DNA of 64,000 bases from Acinetobacter sp. TGL-Y2. GTDB lineage: Bacteria > Pseudomonadota > Gammaproteobacteria > Pseudomonadales > Moraxellaceae. Where the stretch lies: the NCBI RefSeq assembly GCF_001612555.1, contig NZ_CP015110.1, forward strand, positions 2,728,001-2,792,000. Direction: 5' to 3'. This document shows positions 4,018 to 56,769 of the stretch, in pieces. The translations under genes were made by a program, and so were the position numbers. Position 1 is the first letter of the stretch, and each line of letters opens with the position of its first letter. Under the pieces are notes generated by a model, which saw nothing but the letters and a program-made list of their open reading frames with translations, ran no database searches and had not been told where the DNA came from.

Positions 4018-5097
4018 TTGAAAAAAATCAAAATTGTTCTAGCTATGCCTAGTCATAGTAATTTCGCAACTCCCATTCAAAAAAATATCCTGCATTATAA
4101 TTTTGATATAACATTTATCAATAGTTCGCCAGAACACTTAAGACGCATAAAAATTCCATTTAAAACATCTGCTTACATTTTTTTAAGAAATCTTTTCTTT
4201 GGTGACTCCTCATTAAAAGATAAAGTTAGGAGCGAACTTAAGGATCAACTTATCTATAAAGAAATTCAAGAAAAAATGGGTAATCAACGTTTTGATCACA
4301 CACTAGTCATTAGACCTGATTTATTCTCTTTGGAACATTTAAAACTTTTAAGGAGTAAAACTGATCGAAAGTTTATAGGTTATCAATGGAATGGCTTGAG
4401 CCGCTTTCCTAATACTTTCCCATGTATTGATCAATTCGATCGATTTTTCGTTTTTGATCAAATGGATATATCAAATCCCGATTATAAAAAATATAATTTA
4501 TTAGGAACAACTAATTTTTATTTTGATATGTTTCAACCTCACCCCATAGCCCATCAAGGTATAACCGCTTATTTTGTAGGTTTGCATTTCGATGAACGAT
4601 CATTATCAGTCGACTTATGTGCACAAAAATTAATAAAGCTTGGAGTATCATTAGATTTCAATATTAGATGTCTACGTGATAAACAGAATGCACAAGCTCG
4701 ATATACAAATAAAAATATTAAGTTTATAGAAAGAAATATTGATTTCGATGAAAATATAAATCGAATTAACCAATCAGATATTTTAGTTGATGTAGTTAAT
4801 CCGGTTCATAATGGTCTTTCATTTCGCACATTTGAAGCACTATATTATAAGAAAAAATTAATAACCAATAACACTACAATAAAAAACTACGATTTTTACC
4901 ATCCGAATAATATTTTCGTATGGAATGGTCAGGATCTTGCTGGTCTTAAAGAATTCTTAGCCACTCCTTTTGTCTCACTGAGTAAGAAGATTCTAGAAAA
5001 GTATAGTTTTAGCAACTGGATCAATAACCTGCTAGACCACTCCTCCTATCAACAAATAGAATTACCAGAGTCTTATCATAAAATTATCGAAAAATAA
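4018..5097 (+). CDS. Putative LOS outer-core glycosyltransferase (GT4/CgeB-like)
   Basis: 359-residue protein starting with TTG (AGGGA about 10 nt upstream). The order of elements resembles a GT-B glycosyltransferase: an N-terminal IKIVLAMPSHSNFATP segment and a C-terminal block HNGLSFRTFEALYYKKKLIT that matches the glycan-donor motif of CgeB-like and other LPS transferases, in which a Glu binds the nucleotide sugar. It likely adds a sugar to the LOS core at the cytosolic face. It is more AT-rich than aspS, as is common for such loci. Sugar and linkage cannot be inferred. Confidence 0.6.
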   Translation: MKKIKIVLAMPSHSNFATPIQKNILHYNFDITFINSSPEHLRRIKIPFKTSAYIFLRNLFFGDSSLKDKVRSELKDQLIYKEIQEKMGNQRFDHTLVIRPDLFSLEHLKLLRSKTDRKFIGYQWNGLSRFPNTFPCIDQFDRFFVFDQMDISNPDYKKYNLLGTTNFYFDMFQPHPIAHQGITAYFVGLHFDERSLSVDLCAQKLIKLGVSLDFNIRCLRDKQNAQARYTNKNIKFIERNIDFDENINRINQSDILVDVVNPVHNGLSFRTFEALYYKKKLITNNTTIKNYDFYHPNNIFVWNGQDLAGLKEFLATPFVSLSKKILEKYSFSNWINNLLDHSSYQQIELPESYHKIIEK

Positions 5098-19760: not shown

Positions 19761-19779
19761 GAATTTGGTCCCGAGGGTC
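19761..19779. other. attL core repeat
   Basis: 19 bp (GAATTTGGTCCCGAGGGTC) identical to 56678-56696. It carries the 3' terminal bases of tRNA-Leu but no complete tRNA, so this is the phage-displaced copy. Confidence 0.88.
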
Positions 19780-20559: not shown

Positions 20560-20985
20560 ATGAGTACTCTATATTCAACACAAGTTAAAGCAGTTGGCGG
20601 TCGTAACGGAAATGTACATAGCGAAGATGATTTATTAAATCTTAGTCTTGCTTTACCAAAAGCACTAGGTGGTAAAGGTGATGCAACAAACCCTGAACAA
20701 TTATTTGCAGCAGGTTATGCATCTTGTTTTGGTAATGCTGTTATTCATGTATCACGAAATAAAAACAATAAGGTTCGAGATAATGATATTGAAGTAATTG
20801 CCACAGTTGGATTGAAATCAAATGACCATGGTGGCTTTGCCCTAACAGTAGCATTAGAAGTAACGATTACAGATCTAGATCAAGAAACTGCAGAGTTAAT
20901 TGTCAGTGAAGCCGATAAGGTTTGCCCTTATTCCAATGCAATTCGGGGTAATATAGAAGTTACTATCACTGTAAAAATTCGATAA
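20560..20985 (+). CDS. ohr: Organic hydroperoxide resistance protein Ohr
   Basis: 141-residue OsmC/Ohr-family thiol peroxidase that reduces organic hydroperoxides using lipoylated partners. The two redox Cys are visible in AAGYASCFGNAVIH (near residue 60) and ADKVCPYSNAIRGN (near residue 125); the first is the peroxidatic Cys. Start ATG at 20560 follows ATAAGG. It forms a pair with the downstream ohrR-type gene (10 bp gap). It is within the prophage, so it is cargo rather than a phage function. Confidence 0.93.
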   Translation: MSTLYSTQVKAVGGRNGNVHSEDDLLNLSLALPKALGGKGDATNPEQLFAAGYASCFGNAVIHVSRNKNNKVRDNDIEVIATVGLKSNDHGGFALTVALEVTITDLDQETAELIVSEADKVCPYSNAIRGNIEVTITVKIR

Positions 20986-20995
20986 AGATTTCTAT

Positions 20996-21427
20996 ATGTC
21001 TAATGATCATCTAAAGCTAGATAAGCAGTTATGTTTTCCTCTATATGCTGCATCAAACTTGCTAGTAAAAGTATATAGACCTTTACTGGAACCTTTGGGT
21101 CTTACGTATTCTCAATATTTGGTAATGCTTGTGTTATGGGAACGTGATTCTGTAAGTGTGGGTGATCTTGGCCATTGCTTATATTTAGATAGTGGAACTT
21201 TGACACCATTACTTAAGCGGATGGAAAACTCAGGTTTTATTAACCGTCGAAGAGATTCAAATGATGAACGAAGAGTTCTAGTCTCGCTTACGGCTAAAGG
21301 ATCAGAGATAAAAGAACTGGCTGTAAATATCCCTAATAAACTTTCTGAACAGTTAAATATATCTGATATTAGTGAATTAAGAAGTGAAATACAGTCTTTA
21401 GTGCAATCCTTAGCAAAAGCCACTTAA
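20996..21427 (+). CDS. ohrR: MarR-family repressor, OhrR type
   Basis: 143 residues. KLDKQLCFPLYAASNLLVK near residue 8 contains the single conserved Cys of one-Cys OhrR sensors, whose oxidation by organic peroxide releases DNA. The wing shows LKRMENSGFINRRRDSNDER. It follows ohr and probably represses the promoter at 20491-20525. The pairing and order are typical of ohr-ohrR operons. Confidence 0.9.
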   Translation: MSNDHLKLDKQLCFPLYAASNLLVKVYRPLLEPLGLTYSQYLVMLVLWERDSVSVGDLGHCLYLDSGTLTPLLKRMENSGFINRRRDSNDERRVLVSLTAKGSEIKELAVNIPNKLSEQLNISDISELRSEIQSLVQSLAKAT

Positions 21428-41772: not shown

Positions 41773-44283
41773 ATGAGTAGTCTAAGTCTAAGTGCCATTT
41801 TAACCATCGTAGATGAAGCTACTCGCCCCCTTAAAATGATTCGTCAGTTTTCAGATAATACTGAAAACTCAATTGAGGATCTGACTCGTAGTATTGACCA
41901 TCTAAATAGAACTCTAGGTGGTTCAGATGCACAGCGCTATAACCAATCCTTGCAACAAACTGAAAAAAACTCTCATGCTGTCCGTTCAGTAACCAAGATG
42001 TTAGCCACTGAATATGGTCATGCCGATCATGCATTATCTACACTTCTTAATAAAACCAAACAATGGGATGCTCAACTCAAAAAAAGTCGCCAAGCCATGC
42101 ATGCCGAACTTAAAAACACGGCTATGGGTTTAGTGGGCATCGGTTTTGCGGCTTCTGTACCCATCAAAGCATTTGCTGATGCTGAAGAGGCGAGCACTAA
42201 ACTTAAAGTATCAATGATGGATAGCACTGGAAAAGTTGCACCTGAATTTGAAAAAATCAATCAACTTGCAACAAAGCTTGGAGCACAACTCCCTGGTTCA
42301 AATGCCGACTTTCAAAATATGATGACCAACTTGGTTCAACAAGGCATTAGTTTTAAGTCAATTTTAGGTGGAACTGGTGAGGCTGCGGGTAATTTAGCAG
42401 TTCTACTCAAAATGCCATTTGATGAAGCAGCAACCTTTGCAGCCAAAATGCAAGATGCGACTCAAACCGCAGAATCAGACATGCTCAGTTTAATGGACAC
42501 CATTCAACGTACTGCCTACTTAGGTGTAGATCCAACCAATATGCTTGGTGGATTCGCCAAACTTGGTGCAGGCATGAAAATGATCAAGCAAGCAGGACTT
42601 GAGGGTTCTAAAGCAATGGCTCCCCTTTTGGTCATGGCAGATCAAAGTGGCATGACAGATTTAAGTAGCGCAGGTAATGCCTTAACTAAAACCTTCAAAG
42701 CCATGTTAGATCAATCCAAAATAGATAAAGCATTAAAGGGCACAAAATTAAAACTCAATTTTAGTGATGGCAAAGGCGAGTTTGGTGGTTTAGACAAGAT
42801 GTTTAAGCAACTCGATCAACTCAAATCGATGACCACCCAACAACGAAATGGCATCATTTCAGACATTTTCGGTAATGATGCTGAAAATATGCAGATCCTG
42901 AATTTATTAATTGATAAAAATAAAAAAGGTTATGACGACACGATTGAAAAAATGAATCGTCAAGCAGATCTACAAACACGGATTAATGAACAGCTCGGCA
43001 CTTAAAAAAACCTCTGGGAACAAGCCCAAGGTGCAATGACCAATGTCATGGTTGACTTAGTAGCAGCGATCGCACCTGATTTAAAAATATTTGTAAATCA
43101 TATTAGTGCCATCGCCGAAAAAATCAGTACATGGGCAAAAGCCAATCCAGAATTAGTACGTTCACTTGCCAAAATTGCGATGCAGCTACTTCTATTTAAA
43201 GTTGCCTTACTCGGGGTTCGATATACCACTAACCTTTTCTTCGGGGCAATCGTCAGCGTAATTGCAGGCATTACCAAGTTAGCAATTTTAATGTTTGTCA
43301 TTCGGACTGTGGCAGACAAACTCGGCATTGGATTACCAACTCGATTTACCTTAATTGCAAAAACCATTCAATTGGTCAGTCGTGCGTTTACTTTCTTGGC
43401 CAGTCGAGCTATCCCCTTAGTTCTAACTGGTTTACGTGCAATGGCGATAGCTTTGCTGACTAACCCACTTACAGGTGTAATCGTGTTGATTGCAGCAGTA
43501 GCACTTGCGATCTATCGCTATTGGCAACCCATCAAAGCATTTTTCAAAGGTTTTTGGGATGGACTCAAAATTGGTCTTGCACCACTCATGGATAGCCTTC
43601 GTACTGCATTTAATAATCTTAAAACAACTCTTTCGCCTTTACAGCCTATTTGGGATGCCCTAGTTGGGGCATGGAGTATCTTTAAAGGGGTTTTGGGCGA
43701 AATGCTGACACCTATGCAAGCCACCAATCAAGAACTTCAAAATGCCACCAGTTATGGTCAAACCTTAGGTCAATTTATTGGCGTTTTAGTCGGAATTTTT
43801 GCTGAAGCATTTATGAGCATTGGAACTTGGCTTGGTGAGACTGCAGCCAAAATTGTGATATTTGTAGGTGCTGCCATGGTCGCTTGGGAAAGCTTTAAAA
43901 ATGGTGTAGTCAGTGTTGGCGCAACCATTGTCGATCATTTACTTTCACCCATCCGATTAGTGATTGGCGCTGTCAATATGCTCATTACGGGACTGAATAA
44001 AATCCCCTTTGTGAATATTCCAAAGATTCCACAAATACCCCAGTTTAGTAATTCTGCAACGACTCAAACGGGTGTCCCAACTAAAACCATTCAGACTCAA
44101 CCGATTACTCCTTTACGCTTGCCTCAAACTAAGACATCCGTCAATCATTTTGCCCCTGCACAAATTCATATTTCAGGTGTAGCAGATACGCAAGCCGTTG
44201 CTGTATTGATGGATCAAAAACTAAATAAATGGCAACAATCTGTAGGCGCAGCGCAAAACCGCAGTTATAGCGATAATGATTAA
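41773..44283 (+). pseudogene. T: Tape-measure protein (P2 gpT), interrupted by an in-frame stop
   Basis: Both halves are in one frame: residues 1-410 (LSLSAILTIVDEATRPLKM, the tape-measure N-terminus, with coiled coil and MLSLMDTIQRTAYLGVD) and, after TAA at 43003-43005, NLWEQAQGAMTNVMVDLVAA through several hydrophobic helices to 44283. The total, 836 codons, fits P2 gpT (815). The stop could be a C-to-T change of CAA. ATG 43036 could restart the second half. A full-length tail seems impossible without suppression, unless this is an assembly error. Confidence 0.85.
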
Positions 44284-46915: not shown

Positions 46916-47205
46916 TCAACATTCTTTTGATGAATTTTCCAACTAATAAACATTAACACAACTAAAATACCAATAGGTACAATCCACATACCCAAGCCTA
47001 CGTAATTGGAATGTTTAATAATAAAATTTTGATAAGGTGTAGTCCCCATAATTTGAAAATTAGCAATTGCATAAATAATTTTTGGATAAAGCCAACTTAC
47101 TCCCATCACAATCAAACAGCTCAATATCATCAAATAACCAGGACCAGGGAATCTACTCATCACAGCAGAATGAAATTCCATCCATTCTTGTAATTTTTCT
47201 CTCAT
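46900..47205 (-). CDS. Two-helix membrane protein of the BRCT cassette
   Basis: 101 residues with two hydrophobic segments (about 22-42 and 66-90) and a basic C-terminus. Its start touches the stop of the BRCT-protein gene (47205 shared), so the two are translated together. No family recognised. Gene position and strand, opposite to the late operon, are typical of a lysogenic-conversion unit. Confidence 0.6.
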   Translation of the reverse strand: MREKLQEWMEFHSAVMSRFPGPGYLMILSCLIVMGVSWLYPKIIYAIANFQIMGTTPYQNFIIKHSNYVGLGMWIVPIGILVVLMFISWKIHQKNVEKYYK

Positions 47206-48077
47206 TATTCAATTCCAACCCATCTTACAAAATCATCTTCAGTAATGATCTTGATATTCACTCCATCCTTTTGCCACTTCTTTGCTTGTTCAAACTTACG
47301 ACCGTAGCTTACATGCGCCCATGCTGTATTACCTTTATTACAGATCACAAGGTAATTCACACTCATGGTCATATCATCAACAAACTTAGCCCCATTATTC
47401 TGAACCAAATCCTTCCATTCACTCTTTTTAAACCGTGACGAAGCACCTGTAAAACAATACACAGCATCTTCAAGCTGTAACTGACCTTTATAAAAATCAG
47501 GATTATCCTCACTTTCAACAACTTTTTTTAGCTGACCATGATTGTCAACATCAACATAACGAGCAATGAGTTTATTAATCGAACTGATCTGAGCATCAGT
47601 TAAATCCTTATTAATTCGTAAAGGTTTTAATGCGGTAAATACTTCTTGATAAAGTAAATCATCTTCCAAGTGATCATTATCTTTTAACCACAGATTCAAA
47701 AAAGATAACTCACTTATTGTCAGGCTCCGATCACAAACCAAGCCTGCTAAGATGCCATGCAACCTTTGCACATCAGCCGTATGCTTCTTATAAAATTCGT
47801 TTGACTTGAATAGCTGTAAAACTTTAAAAAAATTATTCTTTTCTTCATCGGAAATACCATCAACAGTTGTTATTTCGGACAATTTTTTAAATAGTCTTTC
47901 AAAATGAGGGTCATGCAGCTCAGCCAAACTATTATGCCATTCGATTATTGCCTCAATTTCCTTAACATTTATTTTTCCATCAATCGCAATCCCCTCAATA
48001 AAGCCTAAAAATGAGTTGATATTTTTATCTTTAATGGCATTTGCCATATAGCTATCTATTATTTGTTTTTTTGTCAT
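47205..48077 (-). CDS. Protein with two TerB-like helical repeats and a C-terminal BRCT domain
   Basis: 290 residues. Residues about 20-90 and 105-175 are an apparent internal duplication: GIAIDGKINVKEIEAIIEWH then FLNLWLKDNDHL, with VDGISDEE echoed by RINKDLTDAQ; the pattern resembles TerB-type helical domains. The C-terminus (residues 200-290) fits a ligase-type BRCT: VYCFTGASSRFKKSEWKDLV, NYLVICNK, IKIITEDDFVRWV. BRCT domains bind DNA ends or phosphoproteins. Not known from P2. Transcribed from the gap 48078-48270, which it may share with the early promoter. Confidence 0.65.
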   Translation of the reverse strand: MTKKQIIDSYMANAIKDKNINSFLGFIEGIAIDGKINVKEIEAIIEWHNSLAELHDPHFERLFKKLSEITTVDGISDEEKNNFFKVLQLFKSNEFYKKHTADVQRLHGILAGLVCDRSLTISELSFLNLWLKDNDHLEDDLLYQEVFTALKPLRINKDLTDAQISSINKLIARYVDVDNHGQLKKVVESEDNPDFYKGQLQLEDAVYCFTGASSRFKKSEWKDLVQNNGAKFVDDMTMSVNYLVICNKGNTAWAHVSYGRKFEQAKKWQKDGVNIKIITEDDFVRWVGIE

Positions 48078-48138
48078 TTTTCTAACTTTGCACGATTTAT
48101 AACAATGTTGAATTTACAACAACTAAATTAAAATTGAT

Positions 48139-48206
48139 ACTATGCATTAGCTCAAAATGAACCAATGGATAAGGTCATCATGACACTATGCATGAGCTCA
48201 TTTTGA
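48139..48206. promoter_or_regulatory. Candidate repressor operators (direct repeats)
   Basis: ACTATGCATTAGCTCA (48139-48154) and ACTATGCATGAGCTCA (48185-48200) differ at one base and are 46 bp apart; TCAAAATGA and TCATTTTGA form a further inverted pair overlapping them. They lie between the BRCT cassette and the early promoter at 48274, a good place for the XRE repressor or a related protein to act on both. Confidence 0.5.
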
Positions 48207-48273
48207 CACTTTCTTCTTTATATAAATAGAATAAAGAATAGAGATATAAAAGAATGAAATTTTCACACCTGAG

Positions 48274-48302
48274 TTGACTTAAAAAAAAATCATCGTTATA
48301 TT
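48274..48302 (+). promoter_or_regulatory. Early/immunity promoter (sigma-70 type)
   Basis: TTGACT (48274-48279), 17-nt spacer, TATATT (48297-48302). Transcription would start near 48309, just before the CACAG-CGAAA-CTGTG hairpin (48311-48325) and the first target copy of the antisense switch. Confidence 0.7.
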
Positions 48303-48332
48303 GCAAACATCACAGCGAAACTGTGAACGGGC

Positions 48333-48359
48333 GTGAGAACCTGTTTTATCATCAAACGG
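48333..48359 (+). promoter_or_regulatory. Antisense-RNA target copy 1 (seqA-like)
   Basis: GTGAGAA (48333-48339) and TCAAACGG (48352-48359) are both complementary to segments of the putative CI/c4-type RNA (48454-48474). Pairing here in the leader would lead to early transcription stop, as in P4. Confidence 0.65.
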
Positions 48360-48414
48360 TGCAAAATAAAGTCGCACTAAGCGGCATTTTTTTGCCCACT
48401 GTTTAGTCAGTCGT

Positions 48415-48493
48415 TATGACAGGCTATGCAGGGCAGCCTTGTGCTGGTCGCAACCGTTTGAGCGATATTCTCACCCCTGTGTAGTCTGTCACC
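48415..48493 (+). ncRNA. P4 CI / P1 c4-type antisense immunity RNA
   Basis: About 78 nt closed by TGACAG (48417-48422) pairing with CTGTCA (48486-48491), inside which AGGCT/AGCCT (48421-48440) and TCGC/GCGA (48448-48465) form hairpins. The second loop exposes CCGTTTGA (48454-48461), and TTCTCAC follows (48468-48474). These two blocks are the exact complements of TCAAACGG and GTGAGAA, each present once upstream (48333-48359) and once downstream (48500-48540). Two target copies around one antisense segment, a 70-80 nt size, and a promoter upstream are the features of P4 CI RNA and P1 c4 RNA. RNA ends are estimates. Confidence 0.72.
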
Positions 48494-48499
48494 ATTACC

Positions 48500-48540
48500 G
48501 TGAGAAGTAATGATGATGGGTTTTAAAACTTATCAAACGG
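48500..48540 (+). promoter_or_regulatory. Antisense-RNA target copy 2 (seqC-like)
   Basis: GTGAGAA (48500-48506) sits in the loop of a CATTAC/GTAATG hairpin (48493-48512), and TCAAACGG (48533-48540) lies just before the first early gene. Pairing with the antisense RNA would cover the translation start region of the gene at 48550. Confidence 0.65.
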
Positions 48541-48549
48541 AAAATGACC

Positions 48550-48702
48550 ATGAACACTCAAAACAAAAGTGTGCATTCAGCACCTGCATATCAAAACCTA
48601 GACACCCTCTGCATTCAACGCTTACATGCGTCTGATTTCGCCCAACCTCAAAAACTCAGCACTCAAATTTTGAAATTTCTTCGTTCTAAAAAACGAGGTT
48701 AA
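48550..48702 (+). CDS. Small early protein, first gene of the immunity-controlled operon
   Basis: 50 residues (begins MNTQNKSVHSAPAYQ, ends with the basic tail LKFLRSKKRG). ATG 48544 is an in-frame alternative; CGGA precedes it inside the second antisense target. By position it corresponds to P4 kil/eta or P1 icd, the small ORF whose translation is blocked by the antisense RNA. No sequence family recognised. Confidence 0.55.
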   Translation: MNTQNKSVHSAPAYQNLDTLCIQRLHASDFAQPQKLSTQILKFLRSKKRG

Positions 48703-48705
48703 ATC

Positions 48706-48891
48706 ATGCCTAGAAAAATCTATATTCAAACCGAACTAGGCACTGAAAAATGTTGCCCCATGTGTAACGACTACTTCCCTTTTGACGAAGAATTTTATTT
48801 TAAAAATGGCTTTAAAAACGGTGTTCAAAAGTGGGCGGCTCGCTGCAAAGACTGCTACATGCAGTCTTATCGTACGGGGTATGACATATGA
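48706..48891 (+). CDS. Small zinc-ribbon protein
   Basis: 61 residues with two Cys pairs: CCPMCNDYFPF and CKDCYMQSYR. The spacing and aromatic residues resemble phage zinc-ribbon proteins often found near HNH or replication genes. It overlaps the following gene by 4 bp (ATGA). Function unknown. Confidence 0.65.
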   Translation: MPRKIYIQTELGTEKCCPMCNDYFPFDEEFYFKNGFKNGVQKWAARCKDCYMQSYRTGYDI

Positions 48892-49562
48892 AAAACATAC
48901 TCCTTCAAAACAAAGAATATCCCATTATTGCCTCGCCTATGCTCTGCAAAGAGCTAGGCTTGCCTGCTGCATCTTTCTTACAAAAGCTCTATTACTTACT
49001 CAATGAAACAGGCAAATACAAACGTAAGAAAAATCTAACCCAACACAACAACCGCAAGTGGTGGTTTCATACATTTGAGGAATGGGCATCAACACTCGGT
49101 TTATTCAGCCTTTCAACCATCAAACGTGCCGTGGCAAAGCTGAAAGAATTGGGTTTAATTGAAATCAATAAGCTAGATTCAAACAAATCTATGCGAGTCA
49201 ATTACTACGCAATCAACTATAAAAAACTAAAAGATTTATTCGGGATCTGTGTAGCCAAATCAAAACATGAACCTAGGCCAGTTCCTCAGACTGAAAAACC
49301 TCAGGGCACTGACCAACCACAAACTCCTGAAGCGACATCTGAACAAATCAGCACCATGCCTGAAATCAATCGTCAGCTTTACCGCCAATTACGCAAGTTC
49401 AAACTCGACATTGCTTATGACAATCCCCTGCTCTTAGATTGGCAAAATCATCATCGGGAAGTACTTGCTTATGTAGCCTCAGCAAGTAACCGACTCAATA
49501 TCAATAGATGGCAATGGCACACGCCTGAACAAGTCATGCCTGCACATTTGATAAGGATTTAA
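48888..49562 (+). CDS. Winged-helix protein, probable replication accessory
   Basis: 224 residues. The N-terminal part (PMLCKELGLPAASFLQKLYY ... STIKRAVAKLKELGLIEINK) is a winged helix as in phage replication initiators; a Pro/Gln/Thr-rich linker (about 130-155) and a C-terminal segment rich in basic/aromatic residues follow. Coupled to the preceding zinc-ribbon gene. A role in phage DNA replication is inferred from fold and position. Confidence 0.6.
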   Translation: MKNILLQNKEYPIIASPMLCKELGLPAASFLQKLYYLLNETGKYKRKKNLTQHNNRKWWFHTFEEWASTLGLFSLSTIKRAVAKLKELGLIEINKLDSNKSMRVNYYAINYKKLKDLFGICVAKSKHEPRPVPQTEKPQGTDQPQTPEATSEQISTMPEINRQLYRQLRKFKLDIAYDNPLLLDWQNHHREVLAYVASASNRLNINRWQWHTPEQVMPAHLIRI

Positions 49563-49564
49563 AA

Positions 49565-49876
49565 ATGACAATTTCAAAAATAATTCTTAGAGTTAAAAAT
49601 CCGCACAACAATAAGCGACAACTCTTTGTTTCTTCAAAAAAACTTTATAATCTCATCAATCCAGATGTGTCTTATAAAACCTTTATTGAAACCAATGTTA
49701 CCTGGTCAAAGTTAAGAGCAAAAATTGATTACCATTATAATCAACAATTTGACTGCTACAATTTAAGCATCAGCGCAGTTCAAGCCATTCTAATACTTGA
49801 AAATACGGAAAGAAGTTGGTCACTTTTCAATGAATTATCCGATCTCATAAACATTGGTTTTTCAACCATTAATTAA
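49565..49876 (+). CDS. Hypothetical early protein
   Basis: 103 residues with no recognised motif; mixed alpha/beta with basic N-terminus (ISKIILRVKNPHNNKRQ). Two bp after the preceding stop, so in the same operon. Composition is that of a soluble protein. Confidence 0.5.
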   Translation: MTISKIILRVKNPHNNKRQLFVSSKKLYNLINPDVSYKTFIETNVTWSKLRAKIDYHYNQQFDCYNLSISAVQAILILENTERSWSLFNELSDLINIGFSTIN

Positions 49877-51008: not shown

Positions 51009-51341
51009 TCAGCATTTTGGATAAGCAGCTACAAATGCTTTAGCTAAATAAACAAGCCCTTCTTTCTGATCATCAGCTACTAACTCATATAATTCGGTCA
51101 AGATGTTTTTAGAATTTATATTTTCTTTTTCACCAAACAAAACATACGACATATCGAAGCCAACATTTGCCAAAGCATAAATTTGATCCTGATTAAGTGG
51201 ATCCCCATGCTTTTCATAACGAATCCATGAAGCCTCACGCACATCCACAATTTCAGCAGCACCAACTTGAAGAAGTTTAAGACGCTTTCTTTCTTCTTTC
51301 AGACGATTTGCACGATTTTTTGTAGAAAAATTATCATTCAT
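51009..51341 (-). CDS. XRE-family phage repressor-like protein
   Basis: 110 residues. NRANRLKEERKRLKLLQVGA is the first HTH helix pair, REASWIRYEKHGDPLNQDQIYALANVGFD the recognition and stabilising helices, a lambda-repressor-like pattern followed by MSYVLFGEKE, common in Cro/C repressors. It is divergent from the plus-strand genes starting at 51464. Likely a lysogeny regulator acting at 51342-51463 and perhaps at the repeats near 48139-48206. Confidence 0.8.
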   Translation of the reverse strand: MNDNFSTKNRANRLKEERKRLKLLQVGAAEIVDVREASWIRYEKHGDPLNQDQIYALANVGFDMSYVLFGEKENINSKNILTELYELVADDQKEGLVYLAKAFVAAYPKC

Positions 51342-51463: not shown

Positions 51464-51646
51464 ATGATCTCAACTGACCCAATAAAAGAAGTTCAAATTA
51501 GCTTTCGGACTACTCCCGAAATCAAAAGACTTGCCCGTATCGAAGCAGCTAAACAAGACATGAGCCTAAATGAGTGGATCAAACATTTAGTCGAAGCAAA
51601 TTTCACTACAACTAAAATTTCTTCCCCTGCTCAAAAACAATCATAA
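51464..51646 (+). CDS. Ribbon-helix-helix DNA-binding protein
   Basis: 60 residues with an Arc/HicB-like RHH: VQISFRTTPEIKRLARIEAA followed by DMSLNEWIKHLVEA. AAAAAGG is 10 nt upstream. First gene divergent from the repressor, the usual place of Cro/Cox-type proteins, so a lysis-lysogeny or excision regulator role is plausible. No toxin partner nearby. Confidence 0.7.
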   Translation: MISTDPIKEVQISFRTTPEIKRLARIEAAKQDMSLNEWIKHLVEANFTTTKISSPAQKQS

Positions 51647-51667: not shown

Positions 51668-51907
51668 ATGCCAAGTAGCCTTTCTGAAACATATGGACAC
51701 ATTTTTAATGAAAAAATTTGCTGTCCAGTCTGTGACAAGCCATTAAAGATTTTGGGAACGGTGGTTTATTTGGAAAATCCCAAAGGTTATGTAGGTGAGT
51801 GTCGGGAGCTGACATGCATGACTCTGGTTCATTTTCACATTCAAATAACAAATGTGATTGCTCCAAGTCGTTTAATCAAAACAGTTAAGGAATTGAACGA
51901 TGAGTAA
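51668..51907 (+). CDS. Ogr/Delta-like zinc-finger protein 1
   Basis: 79 residues. Cys pairs CCPVC and, about 28 residues later, ECRELTC (C-x4-C) give the CX2C...CX4C arrangement of Ogr/Delta activators, followed by an aromatic-rich LVHFHIQI strand. Overlaps the next gene, a clearer Ogr-like protein, by 8 bp. Together they are like a split form of P4 Delta, which is two Ogr units fused. Confidence 0.55.
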   Translation: MPSSLSETYGHIFNEKICCPVCDKPLKILGTVVYLENPKGYVGECRELTCMTLVHFHIQITNVIAPSRLIKTVKELNDE

Positions 51908-52295
51908 ATCAATTGGTTTTTATTGCCCCCACTGTGGCATTCGTATGCACGTATCAAGTCGTAAAAGACCATCCCCTCTTCTTCATGAACTCATTGTGTC
52001 TTGTCGTAATGATCAATGTCTTGCAAGTTTTGCAGCAAGCCTAGAAATGACTCGACCAATACAAAACAGCATCAACCCAAACCCTGAAATTGAAACAGGG
52101 CTCCCACAGCACAAACGTCAATGGGAGACGGAACTCGAACATCATTTAACAAGTTTAGAAATACAAACCCAAATTGATGAACATCAAAAAAATTATGTTG
52201 AAGGCTTTATCTCTGCGCTATTTCATTCATCAACCATTGATTTGACCAGAGCATCGACATATCGCAATCGCCTTCAACAAATTAAACTCTTATAG
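51900..52295 (+). CDS. ogr: Ogr/Delta-like late transcription activator
   Basis: 131 residues. The first 70 match Ogr/Delta: CPHCGIRMHVSSRKRP, then SCRNDQCLASFAASLEMTRP and PNPEIETGLP, where the P2 protein has CPLCG...CQNINCSATF and a Pro-rich end. A helical C-terminal extension (residues 75-131) is added. It should activate phage late promoters with sigma-70 RNA polymerase; the matching candidate sites are the 27-bp dyads at 29080, 35308 and 38626. Confidence 0.8.
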   Translation: MSKSIGFYCPHCGIRMHVSSRKRPSPLLHELIVSCRNDQCLASFAASLEMTRPIQNSINPNPEIETGLPQHKRQWETELEHHLTSLEIQTQIDEHQKNYVEGFISALFHSSTIDLTRASTYRNRLQQIKLL

Positions 52296-52303
52296 GTTTT
52301 TAA

Positions 52304-55027
52304 ATGGATCTTCAACGTCGTATCGATGACAGACTCAACCAACTTTTTAACTTTAAAAGAGTCGGTGAATGGTATCGCCAAGGTCGCTGTCCAAACTGTC
52401 ATGAAAAAGAACTCTACACCCATGCAGAAACACCACGCATGGTGAAATGTGGACGAATCAATAAATGTGGCTATGAAGAATACGTTAAAGATATCTGTGA
52501 AGAATTTTTTAAAGATTGGTCAGAATATCACCCTAAAACACCTGAGAATCCAAATGCGGCTGCAGATGCATATTTGAGAGATGGCCGTAGCTTCGACCTC
52601 AAAAACTTAAAAGGCAGATACACACAGGAACTTTACCAATCCCCTAAAAATAGAAGCCTGGTCAGTGCCACAGTTCGCTTTAAATTAGCTGAAGGTATTT
52701 ATTGGGAACGTATCATCGACCGTCCAGATCGCTTTGGTCGTCAGAAAGCCAATTTCATAGGAAAATGGACAGGCTTAGCATGGTCAATACATGAGTTAGA
52801 TGAACTCTGTCATGCAGGTAGTATTTGGATTACAGAAGGTATATTCAATAGTATTGCCCTTTCACAGTCAGGCATTATCAGCATGAGTAATATGAACAGT
52901 GGCAATTATCCATCGCAAATATTGGATGCCATCAATAAACGCTGTCATGAACTGAATAAAGCTAAACCACGTTTGGTATGGGCATTAGACAATGATCAAG
53001 CAGGTAAAAAGTTTTTACCTAAACACCATAAACATGCCATCGATCAAGGTTGGATCTCAACCGCTGCCCTACCACCTGTACCCATCAATGGAAAATCACT
53101 CGACTGGAATGATCTTTTTCAGCGTGATCAACTCAACGAAAAAGACCAGGAGAAATATCTCCATTTTGGCAAGCTTCAAATTGTAGAAACACCTGAAGAA
53201 GCAGGACTACTCATCTACAATTTTTATGGTAGCAACCTCAGTAAATTCTTTTTTAATCATAAGTTCCGTACCTACTGGTGGGAACTCGATTATGAAAAAT
53301 ATAACAAAGCTGTCCAATACGTTGAGGAAACCCAACAAGAACAAATGCTCTCTGAAGAGGAAGTACGCATTCAGGCATTAAAAACCTGTTCTTCAGCCAA
53401 AGAAATCTGTAATGCACAGCTTGAACCCCTATATTTTCAACGCAATGAAATCACAGATGAATCTTGGTATTACTTCCACCTACAAAGCCCATGGGGTGAA
53501 ACCAAAACGACGTTTACTGCAGAACACATGGCTTCACGCAGTAAATTTAAGCCCCGTGTCATGTCTGTGCTTTCAGGTGCCATGTGGACAGGCAGTGATC
53601 AACAGCTAGAAACATTTATTAAACGTAAAACTGAAAAATTACGAGAAGTTAAAACAATTGATTTCATTGGCTACAGTAAAGATTATCAAGCCTATATCTT
53701 TGACCAATACGCTGTGCATAACGGGCAAGTTATCCCCAAAAATGAACATGATTTTTATAAAACAGGAAAGAAAGAGCTTAAATCTTTAGCCAACTCCCCT
53801 GTTATTCACCTCAATCCAAAGAAAGAATTTCAAGCCACATGGTGGAAAGACTTCTACAGCTTAAATGGTGCAAATGGCCTGATCATTCTCGCATGGTGGA
53901 CAGGAACATACTTTGCAGAGCAGATCCGTGCACTTAACTCCTCATATCCATTTTTGAATTTGTGGGTCAAGCCGGTGCAGGTAAATCGACGCTACTTGAA
54001 TTGTTATGGAAGTTTAGCGGTCGTGAAGCTTATGAGGGCTTTGACCCTAACAAATCAACCAGTGTGGCAATTTATCGTAACTTTGCTCAAGCCTCAAATA
54101 TGCCTATTGTCCTGATTGAGGGCGATCGTAATGATTCAAATGGCAATGTCCAAAAAGCCAAATTTAGTTGGGATGAACTTAAAGATGCCTTCAACGGTCG
54201 AGCAATTCGCTCTAAGGGCTTAAAAACAGCAGGTAATGAGACCTATGAGCCTCCTTTCCGTGGGTGCAATCATGATTAGCCAAAACACGCCAATTCAAGC
54301 CTCTGAAGCGATTCTATCCCGTACCTTACACATTACAGTGACGACCAAAGGTCATAATTTAGAAAAGAAACGAATTGCCGATGGTCTAACCCGTATTTCC
54401 TTAGAAGACGCATGTACCTACATGACGCACTGCTTAAAAAATGAAGCCAAAATTCTGCAAACCTATACAGAAAATATTCAGGTGCTCGAAGAAGAGTTTC
54501 ATCAAAAAGGTATCACCCATACTCGTATTGCTCTGTGTCATGCCCAAGTATCAGCCATGATCGATGCACTTGAACAACACGTTTTAAAAGGTGTGATCGA
54601 TCTAGAAGAAATCTGCGATGCAAAACGCATTTTAGAATTAATGGCACGAGAGCGTGTAGAGCAATTGGGAAGCGATCATCCGATGGTACAGCAGTTCTGG
54701 GATGCCTTTGAATATATGAATGTCAGCCGTAGTGCATCATTCAATTTGAACCATCATGATCACGATGCCCAGTGCATCGCAATCAATCTCAATGAAGTTT
54801 ACAAAGTAGCAGCTCGAAACTATCAATCGCTACCTGATATCAATGAGATGCGAACCCTACTCCGCTCAAGTCGACGCTATAAATTTTTAGAAATGAATAA
54901 ACCAGTGAAGTCAAAAAACTTCCCTGCAGATGAAGTTAAAAATGCCACGTCAGACATACGTGAACGTGTTGTGAAATGTTGGCTATTTACCAATCCTTAT
55001 TATCAACAAAAAACCCCAACCAAATAA
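52304..55027 (+). pseudogene. P4-alpha-like primase-helicase, disrupted by two compensating frameshifts
   Basis: Whole gene about 907 codons. Zinc-binding domain CPNCHEKELY...MVKCGRINKCGY (residues 26-60); TOPRIM with SIWITEGIFNSIALSQSG and LVWALDNDQAGKKF (180-235); then the P-loop GQAGAGKSTLLELLW and IVLIEGDRND of the helicase. The frame changes at 53950-53955 (five T where six would keep the frame) and returns at about 54258-54262 (GGG where GG would). Between them the original frame stops at 54115. Without these indels the protein is continuous. P4 gp alpha has the same primase-plus-helicase order. Confidence 0.85.
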
Positions 55028-55428: not shown

Positions 55429-56496
55429 TTATGAAATAAGTTTATTGAGTCCTTGAGATTGATTTAACTCTTCTAAAATCTCGTCATTGGTCGGATTGTA
55501 ATAAACCAATGCCTGTTTAGGATCTTTCCATCCAAATATTTTACAAAGCGTTAAAGCATTTTTTATACGCTTGGCCATAAGTGAAGCAGCTTCATGACGT
55601 GAATCATGAAACGTAATATCTGCATTATCCAAACCTGCAAGACTTCGAGCCTTTCTAAATAATACATCCCTTGAAGCATCTGAAACTGTAAAAACTTTTG
55701 GTGAGTTTTTACGATCAATTTTCATGGCCAAAGACCAGAGATGTAGAGCAAAATCATCTAAAGGAATCTTACGAGCAGATCCATTTTTTGTATCAGGCAA
55801 ATAAATAAATCTTTTAGCTAAAAATACATCATGCATTGGTCTATTCACGATTTCACCAGATCTCATGCCCGTAGCCATCGCGATAAGCCAGATCAAACCA
55901 ACCTCTTGCATTTTGGTTGTGGGAATAGAACCAGGGGAATATTTTAAAGCAGCAAGAATTGCATGAAGTTCATCTAGTTCGGTACGACGCTCCCTATGGT
56001 CAGGCTTTTTAGGCTTTCGAATATTTTCAACAGGATTGAAATCAATCCAACCTTTGTCCTTCCTACACCAATTAAAAAAGGCTGAAAGCATTGAATAATC
56101 TCTTAATACACTTGAAGCCTTTAACGGTCGTATAGACCGTTTCATCACTGAATTTTCCCATTCCTTCAGAAACTCAGGACGATATTCAGATAGTGGCCAA
56201 TCCGCATGAGGTAGGTTGTTTTGAAAATATTTAATTCTTTGTGATTCTTTTTTTGCCGTTTTTTTATACAAAGAAACTTCTTTAGCATAACGGCTTAAAG
56301 CTTCATCCATCGTGAGAATAATTTTCTTATTTAAAGCGACTTGAGTAGAATAATTTAAAAATAATTCACGCTCCTGCTCTTCAGCCCATTTTTTCACTTC
56401 AGCTTTTGTTTTTTTAACCTTACTTTTTCTTTGGCCATACGAATCGAGATCCGCTCTCCAACTACCATTATCTTGTTTATAAATAGACAAACTCAT
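55429..56496 (-). CDS. int: Tyrosine recombinase / phage integrase
   Basis: 355 residues. Arm-binding N-terminus (QDNGSWRADLDSYGQRKSK), core-binding SAM-like domain (about 70-170), and catalytic domain with ATGMRSGEIV (Arg I), HDSRHEAAS (His-x2-Arg) and LVYYNPTND (Tyr nucleophile near residue 340). It catalyses integration at the tRNA-Leu att site 182 bp away and excision. Probable promoter lies between the gene and attR. Confidence 0.95.
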   Translation of the reverse strand: MSLSIYKQDNGSWRADLDSYGQRKSKVKKTKAEVKKWAEEQERELFLNYSTQVALNKKIILTMDEALSRYAKEVSLYKKTAKKESQRIKYFQNNLPHADWPLSEYRPEFLKEWENSVMKRSIRPLKASSVLRDYSMLSAFFNWCRKDKGWIDFNPVENIRKPKKPDHRERRTELDELHAILAALKYSPGSIPTTKMQEVGLIWLIAMATGMRSGEIVNRPMHDVFLAKRFIYLPDTKNGSARKIPLDDFALHLWSLAMKIDRKNSPKVFTVSDASRDVLFRKARSLAGLDNADITFHDSRHEAASLMAKRIKNALTLCKIFGWKDPKQALVYYNPTNDEILEELNQSQGLNKLIS

Positions 56497-56677: not shown

Positions 56678-56696
56678 GAATTTGGTCCCGAGGGTC
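56678..56696. other. attR core repeat at the tRNA-Leu 3' end
   Basis: Identical 19 bp to attL. Covers the last 14 nt of tRNA-Leu and 5 nt beyond it, so integration rebuilds an intact tRNA gene. Confidence 0.9.
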
Positions 56697-56769
56697 GGAC
56701 TCGAACCGACACATCATCTCTGATAGTGGATTTTGAATCCACCGCGTCTACCAATTTCACCACCTCGGG
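56683..56769 (-). tRNA. tRNA-Leu (anticodon CAA)
   Basis: 87 nt with acceptor arms CCCGAGG / CCTCGGG, discriminator A and encoded CCA. Anticodon stem GTGGA/TCCAC holds loop TTCAAAA (CAA). A long variable arm and the T arm GTCGGTTCGAGTCCGAC are present, as in class II tRNAs. Integration site of the prophage. Confidence 0.95.

Follow-up and report, generated by a model that had tools for sequence, protein, structure and literature searches.

The window analysed here (the whole 64-kb stretch of DNA) contains a prophage of ~37 kb (19761-56696) in the 3.69-Mb genome of its Acinetobacter host. Its ends are marked by a 19-bp exact repeat, the longest direct match found there, with an attL-like copy on the left (19761..19779) and an attR-like copy on the right (56678..56696) that overlaps a minus-strand tRNA gene (56686-56769) at its 3' end. 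A tyrosine integrase (55429..56496, minus strand; PF00589) lies beside the tRNA gene. The virion genes are of the P2 type and comprise those for the portal, the terminase subunits, the scaffold and the capsid, as well as a tail/virion-morphogenesis gene. Together with an Ogr/Delta late activator and the relatedness to U2F1, they identify the element as a P2-like phage (Peduoviridae, near Bracchivirus U2F1), as the preliminary description of the locus had called it. The nearest named phage is uncultured Bracchivirus U2F1 (MF417929.1), with a capsid identity of 85.7%. The P2-type capsid, portal, terminase and scaffold genes rule out that the element is a P4-like satellite. One viral contig (L194) is apparently the same prophage, with 100% identity to the query protein and the same C4 RNA. 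The tape-measure gene seems to lie in two pieces (43005-43036), its U2F1 counterpart being a single 2601-bp CDS; the second half of this region found no match in Pfam. An OsmC-like gene followed by a MarR-family regulator (20560-21427) lies inside the att repeats, possibly as prophage cargo.

The early operon lies on the plus strand, divergent from a gene for a 290-aa protein with a C-terminal BRCT domain (47205-48077, minus strand; phrog_3989, profile match). Three 20-nt operator- or iteron-like sites of the TGA..ATGCAT..TCA type, with 23-nt spacing, lie at 48135..48200, between the BRCT-domain gene and the RNA promoter. These are followed on the plus strand by an upstream promoter-like site, TTGACA-N18-TAGAAT (48203..48232; 11/12 in a consensus scan), and by the main promoter-like site found in the same scan, TTGACT (48274)-N17-TATATT (48297), which spans 48274..48302 and precedes the targets, just as the preliminary description had it. 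Downstream, in the same orientation, are a leader that resembles the isrK/SeqA RNA (48309..48391) with a 5' hairpin at 48310-48326, an intrinsic-terminator-like hairpin with a T-run (48371..48394), and a C4/CI-type antisense RNA (48412..48496). The terminator-like hairpin sits between the C4 RNA and the first of its two targets.

Four plus-strand genes follow the RNA. The first (48544..48702) is an ORF of 52 aa, or 50 aa from its likely start at 48550, to which no function was assigned by match; tblastn recovered it in six of ten long relatives (L033 and L159-L167, covered over 12-24 kb). Behind it are genes for a 61-aa protein (48706..48891; phrog_3273), an O-like/DnaD-like replication initiator of 224 aa (48888..49562; phrog_6493, 4.7e-18) and, in the same operon, a 103-aa protein (49565..49876). 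The 61-aa and 103-aa proteins occur in all ten long relatives, the O-like protein in nine (not in L160). None of these four genes (48544-49876) gave a match to an antirepressor or antiterminator family. A P1-type immI, in which C4 controls an antirepressor, is ruled out here by the lack of any antirepressor family among them.

Farther along, an XRE-like gene (51009..51341, minus strand) is a candidate second repressor. Its product gave weak helix-turn-helix matches (E 3e-6 at best), no Pfam match, and no match to solved structures at E 0.01. The gene is syntenic in 10/10 long relatives at 27-43% identity, most of its neighbours being 50-97% alike; a conserved but fast-changing regulator of this kind would fit an immunity repressor. 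Sites of the type found at 48135-48200 were sought beside the XRE-like gene, and none was found. Divergent from it is a gene for a HicB-family or ribbon-helix-helix-like small protein (51464..51646, plus strand; PF05534, 1.7e-6), followed on the plus strand by the Ogr/Delta zinc-finger late activator (51900..52295; PF04606, 41 bits, cut-off 26.3) and a Toprim primase identified by profile matches (52304..55027). The primase frame is disturbed at ~53960-54260, with both parts matching all ten long relatives; because of this disturbance, this copy of the prophage may be unable to replicate.

The C4 RNA and its flanking targets

A search with the Rfam C4 covariance model (RF01695), a check put forward in the preliminary description, gave the window RNA 53.8 bits against a curated cut-off of 45; in the 64-kb window, the only other Rfam match at curated cut-offs was a tRNA. 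That description had proposed an RNA of about 78 nt at this place. The place holds, while the extent is amended to a family match at 48412-48496 (plus strand), with a predicted mature part at approximately 48418-48494. The blocks of the closing stem are TGACAG at 48417 and CTGTCA at 48486. By the Rfam alignment and the positions of the blocks, the antisense a' segment occupies the P3 loop (48453..48461, plus strand) and contains CCGTTTGA at 48454, and the b' segment, TTCTCAC (48468..48474, plus strand), is single-stranded and follows the third stem. In the C4 RNA of P1, a' and b' are the two target-pairing segments, according to the available part of PMC5320573.

The three-stem fold (P1, P2 and P3) is backed by covariation over 61 distinct C4 sequences. 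Paired cells amount to 97.0%, and both sides have changed in 23 of 27 pairs, although these counts lean towards the C4 structure because the alignment was fitted to that model. The stem covariation score was 0.591, compared with 0.237 for shuffles and at most 0.106 for slid controls, and 0/500 shuffles scored as high.

C4 elements were collected by means of a covariance model based on 19 Acinetobacter C4 sequences. It was applied to 144 sources (64 + 80), which were picked among the places listed as best-scoring or window-like and are not a random sample. They yielded 167 C4 matches, of which 153 are distinct and have enough flanking sequence. A mature length of about 77 nt is suggested by the tRNA-like ACCA end, which 118 of the 153 elements have, that of the window among them. 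The accessible text of PMC5320573 names a GG at the RNase P site of Acinetobacter C4-like RNAs; this GG is missing from the window, where the sequence is TATGAC, unique among the 153 elements, compared with TATGGT in 75 and TATGGC in 39. The 5'-end processing of the window RNA is uncertain. Judged by the sequence features tested, the GG of the processing site excepted, the RNA is a member of the C4 family.

Exact complements of both antisense segments lie on each side of the RNA. The first target (48333..48360, plus strand) combines the b block GTGAGAA (48333-48339) with the a block TCAAACGGT (48352-48360); the second (48500..48540, plus strand) combines GTGAGAA (48500-48506) with the a block TCAAACGG (48533-48540) and adjoins the start of the first gene. 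The latter a block is found at 48352 as well as at 48533, and in the first target the a match extends to 9 nt (48352-48360 with 48453-48461). The two-block matches total 7+9 = 16 nt upstream and 7+8 = 15 nt downstream. Among 10,000 dinucleotide shuffles per flank, one reached 16 nt upstream and 13 reached 15 nt downstream. A direct check found every block reported in the preliminary description at its position, and the complementarity that it had claimed on both sides is exact. Relative to the C4 RNA, the b/a blocks of the window lie at -79/-60 and +4/+37.

The two-block pattern is rare. Within the host genome, GTGAGAA-N5-30-TCAAACGG occurs on the strand of the RNA at the two target sites only, and on the opposite strand once, at the antisense itself. 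Across the 175 genomes searched, 14 others have a single match each; ten of these are near-identical copies of one stretch, two have another in common, and two are single.

The second a block ends 9 nt before the ATG at 48550. With the Shine-Dalgarno sequence read by eye, the downstream target overlaps or directly adjoins the first gene's ribosome-binding site. Because the start codon lies 7-10 nt past the a block in 34 of 36 window-type elements, this second ATG is the likely start of the gene. The adjacency of the second target to the first gene, as originally proposed, is thereby retained, with the start moved to 48550. Over elements of all types, an ATG or GTG lies 2-24 nt past the a block in 124/126, where by rough estimate chance would give about half.

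Energies and folds were also compared. For the 123 elements with both targets, the mean duplex energy with their own targets was -24.0 kcal/mol upstream and -23.4 kcal/mol downstream, compared with -16.7 and -14.6 kcal/mol when each was matched with one random mismatched element. In co-folds of the window sequences, which cannot represent loop-loop contacts, the a/b pairing forms between C4 and the first target; with the second target, C4 remains folded in the structure of lowest energy and the a/b pairing is absent. When the whole leader is folded at minimum energy, the C4 arm is paired in cis with the first target.

Co-variation of antisense and target blocks

With a target called at ≥12 nt in two blocks, 123 of the 153 elements have both targets, 16 only the upstream one, three only the downstream one and 11 none; own targets are thus matched upstream in 139/153 and downstream in 126/153. 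Mismatched pairs were formed from the 142 target-bearing elements, with pairs of identical strings dropped; of these 3911 pairs, 15.0% match upstream and 11.7% downstream. Shuffled upstream flanks match in 95 of 2840 cases. The elements contain 74 P3-loop strings and 26 b strings in 87 observed combinations, indicating that a and b blocks recombine. The a block of the window, CCGTTTGA, is itself paired with other b blocks in L116, L129 and L145. In b classes that comprise three or more loops, the match to the own a block averages 8.0 nt (122 elements) versus 5.2 nt to other loops (2456 pairs).

A second set comprises the relatives of the O-like protein, at 27 loci on 19 viral and eight genome contigs; it overlaps the first set, since the earlier sources already included the contigs of seven of the eight genome loci. 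These loci gave 25 C4 matches, the match being absent in L212 and L220, which have the most distant O-like proteins of the 27 (39-41%). Removal of three duplicates leaves 22 distinct leaders, including that of the present prophage (L194). All 22 match both of their own targets over at least 13 nt, compared with 8 of 452 mismatched pairs, and the group holds 17 distinct target pairs. Covariation among homologous prophages, the further check that had been suggested at the outset, is found in both the stems and the antisense-target blocks.

Other parts of the leader are conserved in this group. The terminator-like hairpin with its T-run and the aligned start codon are present in 22/22 leaders, TATATT occupies the -10 place in 21 (absent in L195), and the 5' leader hairpin is found by exact pattern in 21, its loop being shorter in L210. 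With a matrix built from eight of the 20-nt sites, a search of the 700 nt upstream gave three copies for 22 of 25 group loci (a count that includes the window's copy and same-contig copies), and one or two for L210, L197 and L217. Eight of the ten long relatives have three such sites, L167 has two, and L160 has none. The window leader falls below the cut-off of two further Rfam families, the isrK RNA (RF01394; 48309-48391, 27.7 bits, cut-off 50) and the C4 a1/b1 target family (RF03163; 48296-48347, 23.9 bits, cut-off 46.7). The leaders of P4 (60.8 bits) and N15 pass the threshold of RF01394.

C4 elements across Acinetobacter

C4 matches are widespread in the genus, occurring in 145 of 175 Acinetobacter genomes, with a top count of at least 23 per genome; in a set drawn over the class, they were found in 18 of 274 genomes. 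The host genome is included in both counts. It carries a second C4 element (L002 1501-1586; contig C1 1343742-1343827), which has different blocks and both of its own targets; none of 26 tested prophage proteins matches around it. Exclusion between elements of equal specificity was examined in co-resident pairs, where 1/76 was of equal specificity versus 3.1 expected, a count equalled or undercut in 39/200 shuffles; the deficit is not significant and is confounded by orthologous loci in related genomes.

Many chromosomal C4 loci (L003, L004, L007-L016 and others) have two targets followed by genes other than phage replication genes. In 18 such elements, a leader ORF of 28-31 aa precedes a gene of the TetR family; the one that was tested (L003:1906-2460) matched TetR_N. 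Other chromosomal loci are followed by short ORFs and by genes for lipoprotein-like products, as judged by eye; two of these products had no Pfam match. Divergent C4 pairs, ~0.5-1.9 kb apart and with unlike b segments, occur in L034 (3474-3561, minus strand, and 4100-4182, plus strand) and also in L047, L050, L051, L052, L030, L071, L087, L088, L118, L119 and L141; one is on an Acinetobacter soli plasmid, and the list includes some places twice over. In L144 (2519-2603), on a 76.9-kb contig, a C4 element stands before a gene for a Bro-N-domain protein (PF02498, 76 bits), an arrangement like that of the P1 antirepressor.

The 11 C4 units without own targets are found in six sources. Tandem units with a period of ~85 nt occupy L013 (1007-1262) and L014 (1009-1264), with three units each, and L004 (1009-1264), where two units were matched and a third was seen between them by eye; single target-less units are found in L003 (1179-1262), L015 (1824-1910, minus strand) and L085 (3009-3096, minus strand). 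Each tandem unit has its own a' loop, and by eye a promoter-like sequence lies ahead of the row. The second unit of L013 and L014 matches the targets of L003, L004 and L006 over 17+13 nt (raw match lengths). The tandem-junction pattern occurs in five of the 175 genomes. In a small genome from another family of the class, four C4 matches lie within 1.4 kb (G435:C9:1700-3092), perhaps as an array. It is conceivable, though on balance doubtful, that C4 RNAs form a genus-wide combinatorial immunity code with interchangeable a and b blocks, spread over phages, plasmids and chromosomal loci, in which the target-less tandems would be multi-specific trans-silencing arrays.

Known switches and the proposed mechanism

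RF01695 scores 78.8 bits for N15, 74.9 for P4, 69.6 for P7, 68.8 for P1 and 64.8 for U2F1, in which the C4 RNA is present but unannotated; P2 and Fels-2 gave no match in this search, and KS14 reached only 12.2 bits. The b/a block offsets are -82/-68 and +1/+30 in P1, -160/-144 and +5/+36 in P4, -75/-60 and +8/+34 in N15, and -81/-62 and +3/+35 in U2F1. The preliminary description's assignment to the P4 CI/P1 c4 type is borne out by the family score above cut-off and by the same layout in P1, P7, N15 and P4.

The window resembles P4 most closely in what surrounds the RNA. Besides the RNA family and the two flanking targets, the two share an identical b block, GTGAGAA, a terminator and an isrK/SeqA-like leader ahead of the RNA (the window leader being below the family cut-off), and a downstream target beside the start of the gene that stands ahead of the replication genes. 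They differ in the distance of the first target from the RNA (160 nt in P4, 79 nt in the window) and in the a blocks; moreover, P4, as a satellite, borrows its helper's virion, whereas the window phage has capsid, portal and terminase genes of its own. The CI RNA of P4 pairs with seqA and seqC, causing transcription termination and leaving the replication genes silent, as stated in the accessible part of PMC4825925. Since there is a replication gene and no antirepressor among the four genes behind the window RNA, P4 is a better functional model than P1. The c4 RNA of P1 and P7 (immI) and that of N15 belong to the same family and share the geometry, with P1 targets lying at -82 and +1, and the block differences between P1 and P7 resemble those among the present relatives; in contrast to these phages, the window RNA is followed by replication genes, with no antirepressor family matched. 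The IsrK RNA of Gifsy-1 is likewise a leader RNA with a terminator before a short ORF, but the window leader scores below that family's cut-off, and none of the four genes downstream of the RNA matches an antirepressor or antiterminator family.

Protein repressors are the textbook rule in P2-like phages, and the immunity of P2 rests on its protein repressor C. The window prophage has P2-type virion genes but differs from P2, which lacks a C4 match, by an RNA switch ahead of the early operon, with the XRE-like gene elsewhere; this accords with the distinction from P2 drawn in the preliminary description. Of 20 other records whose primase is related (28-41% identity), nine were searched, eight of which are labelled Peduoviridae, and all nine lacked a C4 match. 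The switch therefore does not simply accompany this kind of primase, and there is no support for C4 being common to P2-like phages that have it, given these nine records and the lack of a match in P2 and Fels-2.

Very probably, then, the early (replication) operon of this P2-like Acinetobacter prophage is under the control of an antisense RNA of the C4/CI type. Transcription would start at ~48309 and pass through the first target, the terminator, C4, the second target and the short gene to the O-like replication gene, and the tRNA-like C4 part would be excised from the transcript. Through the P3 loop (a') and the b' segment, it would pair with the b-a blocks of the leader target and of the first-gene target; translation of the first gene would be blocked and, as in P4, transcription would stop before the replication genes. 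A superinfecting phage that carries identical blocks would likewise be silenced in trans (homoimmunity), and one with other blocks would be unaffected. The XRE-like protein may act as a second repressor.

The fold of the whole leader, in which the C4 arm pairs with the first target, and the co-residence test, which gave no significant exclusion, would also suit an RNA that acts only as a cis attenuator, folding on its own leader to set operon expression without trans immunity. Such an attenuator, however, needs neither a second target at the next gene nor a tRNA-like unit with an ACCA end (118/153), and the blocks diversify as heteroimmunity would predict; we consider it distinctly improbable. 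The leader also carries an isrK-like sequence, below cut-off, and a terminator kept in 22/22 leaders, as would be expected of an IsrK-type activation in which the terminated leader RNA binds the C4 of the long transcript and relieves repression, with C4 itself passive. This scheme accounts for the first target but not for the second and is unlikely to be the answer here, although activation of this type may exist as an added layer, because the leader carries a target.

Attention may instead be turned to the first gene product. Kil of P4 is a toxic product, and if the 50-52-aa product were toxic too, C4 could be the RNA antitoxin of a type I toxin-antitoxin system, with immunity secondary. The closeness of a start codon to the a block in 124/126 elements (set against an estimated half by chance) agrees with this, whereas the ORF behind the switch varies between groups from 10 to >200 aa while the RNA switch persists, and the first target in the leader would have no role; such a system seems very unlikely. 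That the locus is a decayed remnant, functionless in this host, is suggested by the disturbed primase frame, the tape-measure gene seemingly in two pieces, and the GG lost at the processing site. Both targets nevertheless still match both antisense blocks exactly, which makes decay an improbable account. Control of the early operon by the C4 RNA thus remains the reading that we prefer.

The kind of RNA is itself already known from switches of the P1/P4 type; the novelty lies in its occurrence in a group of P2-like phages, in how many natural specificities there are, and in the broader pattern across Acinetobacter. In the open-licence literature, as far as its available text goes, we found no account of a C4 RNA in P2-like Acinetobacter phages, nor of own targets of Acinetobacter C4 RNAs, among the matches listed. 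The Group 1 sRNAs of A. baumannii are C4-like and belong to the same RNA family and the same genus; RNA-seq of AB5075 revealed a group of 21 similar RNAs, expressed and apparently processed, and in the full-length RNAs the C4 part was covered by more reads, the start being GGW with two exceptions (PMC5320573, available part). The same part of that paper leaves the targets of the Group 1 sRNAs open, whereas two own targets were found beside 123 of the 153 elements collected here.

These results place an RNA immunity switch of the P4 type in one group of P2-like phages that have their own virion genes, and make 17 natural target pairs available within this one phage group. The switch most likely keeps the early genes of the virus off and blocks related viruses. 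More widely, C4-like RNAs of Acinetobacter most likely act on the targets that adjoin them, with block identity predicting mutual silencing; if this is true, the superinfection immunity of such elements would be predictable from sequence.
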